Below are positions 9,310-59,931 of a DNA stretch of 59,931 nt, piece by piece; the stretch's first letter is position 1; the number at the start of each line of letters is the position of its first letter. This DNA is from an uncultured Clostridium sp. GTDB lineage: Bacteria > Bacillota > Clostridia > Clostridiales > Clostridiaceae. A program made the translations under genes and the position numbers. Below the pieces are notes generated by a model. That model was not told where the DNA came from. It was given only the letters and a program-made list of their open reading frames with translations, and ran no database searches. Location of the stretch: assembly GCF_947039605.1 (NCBI RefSeq), contig NZ_CAMQZG010000022.1, forward strand, positions 1 to 59,931, read 5' to 3'.

Positions 9310-10599
9310 ATGGGTGATTTTAATAGAAATGATAATGAGGAGTATTTTGGTTTAAAGAATGAGGGTGACCAAAGTTCAAATAAATCATATGAAATTGAAG
9401 AGGAAAGTAGCCAAACTTCAAATGAATCATATAGTGAGAATAGTTTTAGTGAGGGTTCAAATTATAAGGGGAATAATGATGAGGAGCCTAAAAAAGAAAA
9501 GAAGAGTTCTAAAAAGGGTATAGCAGGAACTCTAGCGGTTGCGCTTACAGCATCTTTAATAGGTGGTGGAATTGGTGGACTTGGAGTTTTTGCAGCTATG
9601 AATGATTCTAAAGAAGAAGAAAAAAAAGTTGAGGCAAGTGCAGTTCCTGTAACACCTCAATTTAAATCACAAGATGGTATAATGACAACAGCAGAGGCAG
9701 TTCAGGCTGTGACACCAGCGGTTGTAGGGGTTTCAACTAAAACACTTGTTAGAGATGAATATTTTAATGGGGTAAGAGAACAAGAAGGTATTGGTTCAGG
9801 CTTTATTATAAGTGAAGATGGTCTTGTAGTAACTAATTACCATGTAATTGCTGGAGCACAGGAAGTTAAGGTTATTTTAAGTGATGGAACAGAGGTTGAT
9901 GCAAAAGTTGTTAATTATGATGAAAAAGCAGATTTAGCAGTTGTTGATATTACAGAGCATATGAAAATGCCAGGAGTTGCAAAACTTGGTGATTCATCAA
10001 AACTTTTAGCTGGAGAAGATGTTATTGCAATTGGAAATCCATTAGGTAAAGAATTTAGTAAGACAGTTACTAAGGGAATTATAAGTTCGCCTAATAGACT
10101 GCTTAGTGTAAATGGCTCTCCAGATGATACTGAGGAGTTCATACAGACAGATGCAGCTATTAACCCAGGTAATAGTGGAGGTCCACTTATAAATGCCAGA
10201 GGGGAAGTCATAGGCGTAAATACAGCTAAGAAAGTTGGAGAAGAGATTGAAGGTATAGGATTCTCTATTCCAATAAATACTGTGAAAGATAAACTTGATA
10301 ACCTATCAAGCCCAGAACTTGTAATTGGTATAACAGGAATTGATGTTACAGCTGAGGAAGCTAAGAAAAGAAATCTTCCAGCGGGTATATATGTTAAGTC
10401 AATCGCTGATTTTAGTCCAGCTCAAAAAGCAGGATTAAAACTTGGAGATGTAATAGTTGCATATAATGGCAAGCCTATTAAAGGAATTGCAGAATTAAAT
10501 ATTGAAAAAGAAAAATCTAAAGAAGGCGATGTTATAGCTCTTACAGTTGTAAGAGAAGGTAAAAATGTTAATTTAGAATTAAAACTTGAAACATTTTAA
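9310..10599 (+). CDS. HtrA/DegP-type membrane serine protease with PDZ domain
   Basis: A 429-residue envelope quality-control protease. The N-terminal 70 residues are a charged, Ser/Asn/Glu-rich cytoplasmic tail, followed by one Ala/Gly-rich membrane segment (about 73-98). The trypsin-like domain has H178 (NYHVI), D208 (ADLAVVD) and S289 (NPGNSGGPL). A PDZ domain occupies about 335-428, including AGLKLGDVIVAYNG. The triad is complete. It starts at an ATG after AGGAGG. It is equivalent to the HtrA-like proteases of Bacillus (HtrA/HtrB/YyxA). Single-gene unit with a terminator directly after it. Confidence 0.95.
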   Translation: MGDFNRNDNEEYFGLKNEGDQSSNKSYEIEEESSQTSNESYSENSFSEGSNYKGNNDEEPKKEKKSSKKGIAGTLAVALTASLIGGGIGGLGVFAAMNDSKEEEKKVEASAVPVTPQFKSQDGIMTTAEAVQAVTPAVVGVSTKTLVRDEYFNGVREQEGIGSGFIISEDGLVVTNYHVIAGAQEVKVILSDGTEVDAKVVNYDEKADLAVVDITEHMKMPGVAKLGDSSKLLAGEDVIAIGNPLGKEFSKTVTKGIISSPNRLLSVNGSPDDTEEFIQTDAAINPGNSGGPLINARGEVIGVNTAKKVGEEIEGIGFSIPINTVKDKLDNLSSPELVIGITGIDVTAEEAKKRNLPAGIYVKSIADFSPAQKAGLKLGDVIVAYNGKPIKGIAELNIEKEKSKEGDVIALTVVREGKNVNLELKLETF

Positions 10600-10601
10600 T
10601 T

Positions 10602-10636
10602 AAAACTCAGGGAGATAACTCCTTGAGTTTTTTTTC
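10602..10636 (+). terminator. Terminator of the htrA-like gene
   Basis: AAAACTCA...GGAG pairs with CTCC...TGAGTTTT around the loop ATAA, followed by eight or more T. The A-rich 5' arm means it could also stop leftward transcription coming from the adjacent mobile element. Confidence 0.85.
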
Positions 10637-10653: not shown

Positions 10654-10830
10654 GTGAAATACCCACCACTTAGCCTAAAGGCTTGAAGTCGGGGCTTCGT
10701 ATAATCCTGTCTAACCATTAAGGTAATTATTTTACAGACTATCAGTTTCCAACGCTATGGGTTTTTTTAGGAAAACCCTTCCCGTATAACCTACGGTACT
10801 GCAAGCTTAAGACTTGCGTTTGGAAACCTA
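10654..10830 (-). ncRNA. Omega-RNA-like structured RNA (TnpB- or IscB/HEARO-type) in the IS605-like element
   Basis: A long-range stem of 11 bp (10745-10755 with 10816-10827, one bulge) closes a junction containing three hairpins: a GGGTTTT/AAAACCC stem, a CCGTA/TACGG stem and a GCAAG/CTTGC stem. On the other side lie a small ACC/GGT hairpin within a longer weak pairing and a terminal AGCC/GGCT hairpin flanked by CCC and GGG runs that could form a pseudoknot. This is the architecture of transposon-encoded guide RNAs next to an element end. TATAAT on the minus strand (10838-10843) supports leftward transcription, which would put the guide just outside 10654. The opposite polarity (HEARO/IscB-type, guide at the 5' end) is not excluded. 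Confidence 0.5.
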
Positions 10831-10953
10831 TAACTATATTATAACAAAATTCAGGCTATAAATACATGGGAATGCTTAACGTTTAGCTAAAGCTACATCG
10901 ATTCATCTCACCACCTACCTACGGTTGAGGATGGGAGAATTCTCTCAAATTTA
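10654..10953 (-). mobile_element. ORF-less IS200/IS605-like element, 300 bp
   Basis: Read on the minus strand, this 300-bp segment begins right after TTTTTAAC (an IS605-type target) with TAAATTTGAGAGAATTCTCC and a hairpin (CATC-CTCA-ACC...GGTGG-TGAGATG). It ends with a hairpin segment (ACTTCAAGCC TTTA GGCTAAGTGG) and TTTCAC. The same termini recur at 15376-15430 on the other strand, which is the main evidence that they are element ends. Between the ends there is no transposase or nuclease ORF. The interior (10654-10830) is strongly structured and is listed separately. It is a non-autonomous derivative that would need TnpA supplied in trans. Confidence 0.65.
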
Positions 10954-10986
10954 GTTAAAAAGGTATTTGATTTAATCATAAAGTGG

Positions 10987-15333: not shown

Positions 15334-15373
15334 AAATACTCTAGTTAAATAAATTTTAGCTAGGGTATTTTTA
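15334..15373 (+). terminator. Terminator of the sigma-54 PTS operon
   Basis: AAATACTCTAG pairs with CTAGGGTATTT (one T-G) over a 15-nt loop, then TTT. The T tail is also the TTTTTAAC target sequence next to the small IS605-like element. Confidence 0.75.
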
Positions 15374-15375
15374 AC

Positions 15376-15430
15376 TTAATTTGAGAGAATTCTCCCACTT
15401 CAAGCTTTAGCTAAGTGGTGAGTAGTTCAC
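15376..15430 (+). mobile_element. 55-bp IS605-like end pair (deleted element)
   Basis: It follows TTTTTAAC, begins TTAATTTGAGAGAATTCTCC, continues as a hairpin (CCACTTCAAGC TTTA GCTAAGTGG) and ends GAGTAGTTCAC. Both ends match those of the 300-bp element at 10654-10953 read on its minus strand; the whole omega-RNA-like interior is missing. It is a PATE/MITE-like relic or a minimal mobilisable unit. It sits exactly at the T tail of the PTS operon terminator. Confidence 0.6.
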
Positions 15431-59347: not shown

Positions 59348-59393
59348 AACTATTGTCGGTCAGCTAAGTGCTAAACGATACTAAATTTAATAT

Positions 59394-59469
59394 GCTGGCA
59401 TGGCTCAATTGGCAGAGCAGCTGATTTGTAATCAGCAGGTTATCGGTTCAAGTCCGATTGCTAGCTCCA
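59394..59469 (+). tRNA. tRNA-Thr (TGT), first copy
   Basis: 76 nt with encoded CCA. Acceptor GCTGGCA/TGCTAGC (one G-T pair), anticodon loop TTTGTAA (TGT), T-arm ATCGG/CCGAT. Confidence 0.97.
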
Positions 59470-59474
59470 AATGT

Positions 59475-59559
59475 GGTGGGGTTCCCGAGTGGCCAAAGGG
59501 AACAGACTGTAAATCTGTCGTCGTAGACTTCGAAGGTTCGAATCCTTCTCCCACTACCA
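59475..59559 (+). tRNA. tRNA-Tyr (GTA), first copy
   Basis: 85 nt with a long variable arm and encoded CCA. Anticodon loop CTGTAAA (GTA). Acceptor GGTGGGG/TCCCACT has two G-T pairs. Confidence 0.97.
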
Positions 59560-59590
59560 TTTTTTTAAAAGAATAAATTTCTCAGAATAA

Positions 59591-59666
59591 GGTCGCATAG
59601 CTCAGCTGGGAGAGCACCTGCCTTACAAGCAGGGGGTCACAGGTTCGAACCCTGTTGCGACCACCA
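59591..59666 (+). tRNA. tRNA-Val (TAC), first copy
   Basis: 76 nt with encoded CCA. Acceptor GGTCGCA/TGCGACC, anticodon loop CTTACAA (TAC). Confidence 0.97.
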
Positions 59667-59680
59667 AAAAAACTTAATAT

Positions 59681-59756
59681 GCTGGCATGGCTCAATTGGC
59701 AGAGCAGCTGATTTGTAATCAGCAGGTTATCGGTTCAAGTCCGATTGCTAGCTCCA
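59681..59756 (+). tRNA. tRNA-Thr (TGT), second copy
   Basis: Identical to the gene 287 bp upstream. Confidence 0.97.
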
Positions 59757-59761
59757 AATGT

Positions 59762-59846
59762 GGTGGGGTTCCCGAGTGGCCAAAGGGAACAGACTGTAAA
59801 TCTGTCGTCGTAGACTTCGAAGGTTCGAATCCTTCTCCCACTACCA
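59762..59846 (+). tRNA. tRNA-Tyr (GTA), second copy
   Basis: Identical to the gene 287 bp upstream. Confidence 0.97.
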
Positions 59847-59877
59847 TTTTTTTAAAAGAATAAATTTCTCAGAATAA

Positions 59878-59931
59878 GGTCGCATAGCTCAGCTGGGAGA
59901 GCACCTGCCTTACAAGCAGGGGGTCACAGGT
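59878..59931 (+). tRNA. tRNA-Val (TAC), second copy, 5' part
   Basis: Identical to the first 54 nt of the Val gene 287 bp upstream; the T-arm and acceptor 3' strand lie outside the window. Confidence 0.93.

Follow-up and report, generated by a model that had tools for sequence, protein, structure and literature searches.

The window analyzed here, a 59,931-nt stretch of DNA from an uncultured Clostridium sp., carries a 300-nt IS200/IS605-type element at positions 10654-10953 on the minus strand. The element is located between htrA (9310-10599), which encodes a protein with trypsin and PDZ domains, and a PTS IIB gene. A sequence-only reading of this DNA had described the segment as lacking a protein gene, and no open reading frame of at least 100 aa overlaps it. 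The limits given in that reading were correct for 10654-10953 but stopped short on the left, where a TTTAAC motif extends the element by six bases; the right end is TTTCAC. The features of the region are as follows.

10954-10959, minus strand: TTTAAC target/TAM-like motif, the left boundary of all seven full copies in the genome of origin.
10845-10953, minus strand: left end and left interior, with a palindrome around GAGAGAATTCTCCC (10933-10946), matching a Clostridium tarantellae left end.
10838-10843, minus strand: -10 box TATAAT, intact in 10 of 13 aligned scaffolds.
10654-10832, minus strand: predicted omega-RNA scaffold of 179 nt, based on covariation in 13 distinct sequences and matches to covariance model R1.
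10740-10832, minus strand: P1 closing stem (10832-10820 with 10752-10740), enclosing P2, P3 and P4; 91.7% of alignment cells paired.
10782-10797, minus strand: P3, a stem-1-like hairpin, ACCGTAGGTTATACGG.
10753-10754, minus strand: 5' strand of a stem-2-like helix (C, then a variable base), based on covariation.
10698-10699, minus strand: 3' strand of the same helix, at the start of GAAGC, based on covariation and a like switch in tnpB-linked omega RNAs.
10709-10739, minus strand: P5, a stem-3-like hairpin; both bases changed in four of five pairs, with pairing in 95.4% of cells.
10660-10698, minus strand: GAAGC and a stem-4-like right-end hairpin with a TTTA loop (loop compared with PMC10097598).
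10634-10653, minus strand: predicted guide AAGCTCCTTATAAAACAGAA, in flanking DNA.
10602-10631, no strand assigned: htrA terminator hairpin, found on the plus strand and lying beyond the guide on the minus strand, where it folds in the predicted leftward transcript too.
15376-15430, plus strand: solo ends-only element, a left end fused to a right-end hairpin with no scaffold; TTTAAC at 15370-15375.

The genome of origin (3.5 Mb, 99 contigs) contains seven full-length copies of the element: the window copy (contig C22), two on C4, and one each on C35, C79, C31 and C49. All seven begin at TTTAAC and finish in TTTCAC, and their flanks are all different. Partial pieces were found on C17 (right part) and C76 (left part), and at the ends of contigs C91 and C28 (left) and C40 and C6 (right). 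The window copy and the C35 copy are 99% identical in different surroundings, which indicates recent movement. The earlier observation that the ends recur at a second locus in the window is explained by the solo element at 15376-15430, and contigs C1, C8 and C12 carry solo ends-only elements of the same kind. On C8 and C12 the solo element and its flanks are identical and the same TnpB lies about 10 kb away, a likeness that indicates a duplicated segment or a redundant assembly. A search of plasmid and phage records with the element gave no match, nor did a search for PF07282 (TnpB) on the six contigs that hold full copies.

The left end of the element matched that of an autonomous element on contig C21 of C. 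tarantellae DSM 3997 (G005), with 83% identity over query positions 1-92 and a TTTAAC motif. The C. tarantellae element encodes a 137-aa TnpA (PF01797) and a 365-aa TnpB (PF01385, PF07282, PF12323). In the genome of origin, contig C85 terminates in a matching left end, a tnpA with an internal deletion and the opening codons of a tnpB (MLKAY). The deletion has removed most of the second half of this tnpA, and its Pfam match is confined to positions 1-49 of 121; the tnpB start is of the C. tarantellae type, and the remainder is missing from the assembly. The genome-wide search for tnpA and tnpB genes with matching ends, proposed earlier, thus recovered the C85 remnant but no full matching TnpB in this assembly, in which the closest TnpB was 35% identical; no copy of the window scaffold variant joined to tnpB was found. 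Other TnpB genes on C8, C12 and C23 (loci L045, L046 and L047) are flanked by RAGATH-18 RNAs. Ends in common with an autonomous tnpA element, a fixed motif and seven full copies confirm the earlier description of an ORF-less IS605-like element.

The minus strand folded better than shuffled sequences (z -3.05, none of 200 as good), and the plus strand folded no better than its shuffles (z -0.56, 56 of 200 as good). Covariation was assessed in an alignment of 13 scaffolds: four from the genome of origin, one each from C. tarantellae, G070, G131, G100 and a Eubacterium MAG, and four phage-contig sequences. Repeats of a kept scaffold (C35, C31, C49, G100b, V147) were omitted, as were the partial copies C17, C40 and C6, and G114, G086 and other degenerate matches. 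Across 37 pairs in seven helices, 96.1% of cells were paired, compared to at most 52.5% when partners were slid by 1-3 columns as a control, and 13 of the 37 pairs had changed on both sides among the 13 sequences. The covariation score of 0.279 (shuffle mean, 0.113) was reached by none of 500 shuffles; further pair types, one of five covariation measures, were equalled by 7 of 500. Covariation among homologous copies, the lack of which would have counted against the sequence-only reading, was present.

The long-range closing stem noticed in that reading corresponds to P1. No P1 pair had changed on both sides, so this stem has little covariation support of its own and is weakly tested by the alignment. 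Within P3, a C-G pair is swapped to G-C in V148. The helix formed by 10754-10753 with 10699-10698, which crosses P1, covaries (C-G in eight, G-C in four and U-A in one of the 13 sequences), and all four G-C rows come from the genome of origin. The addition of P1 makes this stem-2-like helix a pseudoknot. A different CCC/GGG pseudoknot had been proposed at the right end; the pairing exists, but it is nested and lengthens the right-end hairpin. The candidate UUC/GAA loop pairing of the ISDra2 type fits some aligned copies and misfits others, including the window copy. The 3' boundary of the scaffold is the right end of the transposon, and 12 of the 13 aligned scaffolds end in TTCAC, the exception being V141 with TTCAA.

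Identity among copies in the genome of origin was 95-100% in the core and 95-100% at the right end, while the left interior of the window copy was 72-77% identical to five of them and 98% identical to C35. Compared to C. tarantellae, identity was 85-86% in the core, 65-70% in the left part and 61-64% at the right end. This contrast between core and left interior suggests that the RNA core is under selection, although gene conversion could produce the same pattern. These results bear on the possibility that the element is a passive internal-deletion MITE, in which transposition depends on the ends alone and the RNA is what is left of a tnpB 3' end, with no present function. Comparable remnants do exist, among them G080:C291, a truncated G086 copy, the solo ends-only elements and the degenerate C. 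tarantellae copies C13, C285 and C122, and the likeness of the cores could be attributed to gene conversion. However, the core is conserved above the left part, the compensatory changes span genera and phage contigs, and the scaffold has structures not seen in tnpB-linked omega RNAs. We consider a passive remnant unlikely.

The design of the RNA had been likened to the guide RNAs of both TnpB and IscB. The TnpB half of this comparison stood and the IscB half did not: the suggested Rfam check gave no HEARO match at the locus with E up to 5. HEARO, RAGATH-18 (RF03064) and, at the left end, the group I intron of an IStron were rejected as candidates, as Rfam 15 gave only three weak matches, all to other families (E 3.9-4.7). 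IStrons occur in bacteria, and RAGATH-18 loci are present in the genome of origin, but the latter sit elsewhere, beside other tnpB genes. A member of the HEARO, RAGATH-18 or IStron classes distant enough to escape the Rfam models would be needed at this locus, and we give this reading almost no weight.

Similarity to TnpB-type omega RNAs was seen in several motifs. The scaffold and omega RNAs located 3' of tnpB have in common a covarying helix just ahead of GAAGC and the same type of right-end hairpin, and the stem-1 hairpin ACCGTAGGnnnTACGG is common to the scaffold and some tnpB-linked omega RNAs. Twenty-nine cores 3' of G005-type tnpB genes read, with few departures, AGC(T/G)TGGGTAAAC ... 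GACCA(A/C)GAAGC followed by the right-end hairpin; in 25 aligned cores the switching pair was U-A in 13, G-C in 11 and G-U in one. The window scaffold, ATAGC(N)TTGGAAAC ... A(N)GAAGC, shows a like switch. Some tnpB types other than the G005 type carry a ACCGTAGG stem. Clostridial IS605 omega RNAs linked to tnpB thus resemble the scaffold in the ATAGC(N)T ... A(N)GAAGC arrangement, which undergoes a like compensatory change, in the type of right-end hairpin, and, in 8 of 20 loci and in G080, in the stem-1 hairpin ACCG(T/C)AGGnnnT(A/G)CGG. Unlike the scaffold, they lie 3' of tnpB, have a nested 5-bp stem 2 and show no P1.

The stem-1 hairpin is unique in the window and is not expected by chance (none in 100 shuffles). 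It was present in 9 of 13 scaffolds; the exact motif was absent from the other four (G070, V144, V142, V148) and from all 29 cores of the G005 clade. The tnpB-linked omega RNAs that contain it include those of G080, G059, G019, G128, G173 and G063. Searching 222 sources (782,256 bases, redundant) gave 22 distinct contexts, sorted by reading into 9 of this scaffold, one being the truncated G086 copy, and 13 of tnpB-type omega RNAs, one of which is ORF-less. Two scrambled versions of the pattern gave no match in the same sources; because these were mostly collected for such elements, the specificity holds within them and is not a genome-wide rate.

Covariance models gave a less direct result. 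R1, the model used for the scaffold, matched immediately downstream of tnpB, and on its strand, in five loci (L107, L112, L121, L123, L127), and it scored tnpB 3' ends in 21 of 30 further loci (E 2e-5 to 0.15), partly via the common right end; one further match lies elsewhere in L172. Another model, R3, was built from 25 tnpB-linked cores of one TnpB clade with the right end left out. R3 gave no match in the window with E up to 10, and over 22 sources it found none of 13 scaffold loci and one unrelated match (L003, E 0.32). R3 also misses other tnpB types in its search set. The TnpB-type assignment therefore rests on architecture and motifs and not on a model match, and the failure of R3 suggests a divergent variant, one that has gained a closing stem and further hairpins and carries a -10 box of its own. 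With this qualification, the view that the scaffold is a divergent TnpB-type omega RNA, and not HEARO/IscB, appears largely right. The failure of R3, the lack of counterparts to P1, P2 and P4 in tnpB-linked cores, and three phage copies (V142, V148, V141) with no TTTAAC within 170 nt upstream would also suit a structured RNA that is no guide at all, one that binds TnpA, regulates, or buffers the effects of insertion, and that is omega-like only in its end-proximal motifs. Such a cargo is a distinctly unlikely alternative, as stem 1, stem 2, GAAGC and the right-end hairpin occur in omega-RNA order and finish exactly at the end of the element. The earlier proposal of an omega-RNA-like scaffold is thus upheld by the fold, the covariation and the motifs common to tnpB-linked RNAs. 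The same evidence assigns the orientation as leftward, a point that had been a matter of inference.

By our mapping onto the ISDra2 TnpB omega RNA (PMC10097598), P3 corresponds to stem 1, the crossing helix to stem 2, P5 to stem 3 and the right-end hairpin to stem 4. The order of stems agrees with that of the window scaffold: in the ISDra2 RNA, stem 1 is followed by a stem 2 immediately upstream of the terminal hairpin, with stem 3 inside it, and by a stem 4 with a UUUA loop, after which comes the guide at the transposon end. On this mapping, P1, P2 and P4 appear as additions, and the window scaffold, at 179 nt versus 116 nt, also differs in having its own -10 box and no tnpB in cis.

Relatives of the scaffold were found outside the genome of origin. 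At a threshold of E 0.001, R1 matched 12 of 206 genomes of the family and 2 of 391 genomes of the class, the genome of origin being counted in both. Strong full matches came from G000, G005, G070, G131 and G100, which represent three genera of the family; among the weaker matches are degenerate copies as well as tnpB 3' ends. Strong relatives were also present in a Eubacterium MAG and in five phage contigs. In the viral contigs, R1 confirmed 5 of 10 pattern matches and did not confirm the other five; two more patterns run over the viral contigs gave no further strong scaffold. Of 18 full scaffolds, 15 have TTTAAC in the 170 nt upstream of them. One phage locus is represented twice, as L144 and L147 (98.4% identity over 1430 bp, diverging further upstream), and L142 has a 99%-identical 193-nt sequence at another place, between what read as a capsid-like gene and a small downstream gene. 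This L142 scaffold, at 502-686, is surrounded by phage structural genes, and the 170 nt upstream of it contain no TTTAAC. PF07282 had no match in the five viral records, which are possibly fragments. In the Eubacterium MAG, six TnpB matches were found, and R1 gave no match next to any of them. A TnpB with E of 1e-80 or lower was found in 4 of 5 strong scaffold hosts compared to 41 of 200 genomes (hypergeometric probability about 0.007, worked by hand and at an E cut-off of our choosing).

The TATAAT box noted earlier lies as described, at 10843-10838 on the minus strand; by reading of the alignment it is not intact in the Eubacterium MAG sequence (Eub137), V148 and V141. A consensus scan gave no convincing -35 element, and promoter-like sites in the region were no more frequent than in shuffles (3 found, 3.3 expected). 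Transcription probably runs leftward from this -10 box. The sequence just outside 10654 had been proposed as the guide, and the flank past TTTCAC does differ in all seven copies; the use of this flank as a guide, and the guide length, are predicted. The predicted transcript with guide and terminator folds with z -4.31, and the htrA terminator, read backwards, could close it. TTTAAC joined to the first 10 guide bases of 17 copies had no match in the collected loci.

The position beside htrA had raised the possibility of co-option by the host, with the RNA domesticated to regulate htrA or the downstream PTS genes. The element adjoins the htrA terminator, and a leftward transcript would be antisense to the last part of the htrA unit. 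The insertion site was compared in six relatives, of which G001, G002, G003 and G006 have the whole downstream gap, G005 has 163 nt of it and G004 is cut inside the gene; R1 had no match at htrA in any of them, and the gene after htrA in G001 looks like the same PTS IIB. The absence of R1 matches at htrA, together with seven different guides on seven copies in the genome of origin, makes domestication very improbable, and host co-option is not borne out. In the htrA-PTS gap of G003 (C16, locus L220) lies a tnpB-type omega-RNA-like remnant with no tnpB in view, apparently an independent insertion in the same gap.

The element is present in multiple copies, has a fixed motif and fixed ends, and carries a structured RNA whose end coincides with the right end and which is conserved above the left interior. 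We consider it likely that this is a non-autonomous IS200/IS605 element (MITE/PATE) whose sole cargo is a leftward-read, stand-alone gene for a TnpB-type omega RNA. As it has a guide-RNA scaffold and no protein gene, it most likely borrows the transposase and RNA-guided nuclease of relatives elsewhere in the cell and so keeps its place. TnpB is described as storing the insertion site in its guide, with excision joining TAM and flank as its substrate (PMC11870625). By extension, a TnpA encoded elsewhere would move the element. The RNA would run through the right end into the flanking DNA, so that approximately 16-20 nt adjoining the insertion would become the guide. TnpB made elsewhere would then bind the RNA and cut the empty TTTAAC-guide junction left by excision, and recombination after this cut would copy the element back. 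The earlier suggestion of a guide RNA acting in trans is supported to this extent, from IS200/IS605 biology.

ORF-less IS605 elements and stand-alone omega RNAs are already known kinds. Stand-alone IscB/HEARO omega RNAs were reportedly described by Altae-Tran et al. in 2021. Like the scaffold, they are guide loci that lack a nuclease gene and are presumed to work in trans; they differ in both nuclease and RNA family. A PATE-like sequence of 271 nt consists of a left-end hairpin, the last 58 nt of tnpB and a whole right end (PMC7290912). PATE/MITE elements are like the window element in having IS605 ends and no ORF and in being thought to move in trans, but that PATE is a single internal deletion, whereas the window RNA is multicopy, has a conserved fold of its own and occurs in different genera and in phage contigs. 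In a search of mostly open-access literature, as far as the available texts extend, no TnpB omega-RNA family was described that stands alone and has both a promoter of its own and an added domain.

More tentatively, and with the balance somewhat against it, the scaffold may represent a lineage of stand-alone, self-promoted guide genes that parasitize the nucleases of other IS605 elements, with a closing domain of their own and partly off the transposon. Near-identical phage scaffolds occur at different places, some lacking an upstream TTTAAC and with no TnpB match in their records, and there the TnpB of a host might be directed against the DNA of phages or rivals. Should the RNA work as a guide, guide RNAs of transposons can part from their nuclease and multiply alone, a natural step toward separate guides and effectors as in CRISPR-Cas12. 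It would also offer a testable case of guide-RNA parasitism and of phage-carried guide RNAs, and a compact, self-promoted omega-RNA variant.

Three further observations were made. In L124 (G080:C291), a left end is fused to the omega RNA of the same genome's tnpB type, forming an independent ORF-less guide-RNA carrier. Contig C74 of the genome of origin (L153, 1977-2163) has a second, different omega-RNA-like right end, which ends in GTAGTTGAC, has no TnpB ORF in the 4-kb stretch covered and resembles a TnpB 3' end from the Eubacterium MAG. At 59383-59931 of the window, a tRNA cluster is repeated exactly (262 nt, spacing 287), and a cut tRNA lies at both window ends.
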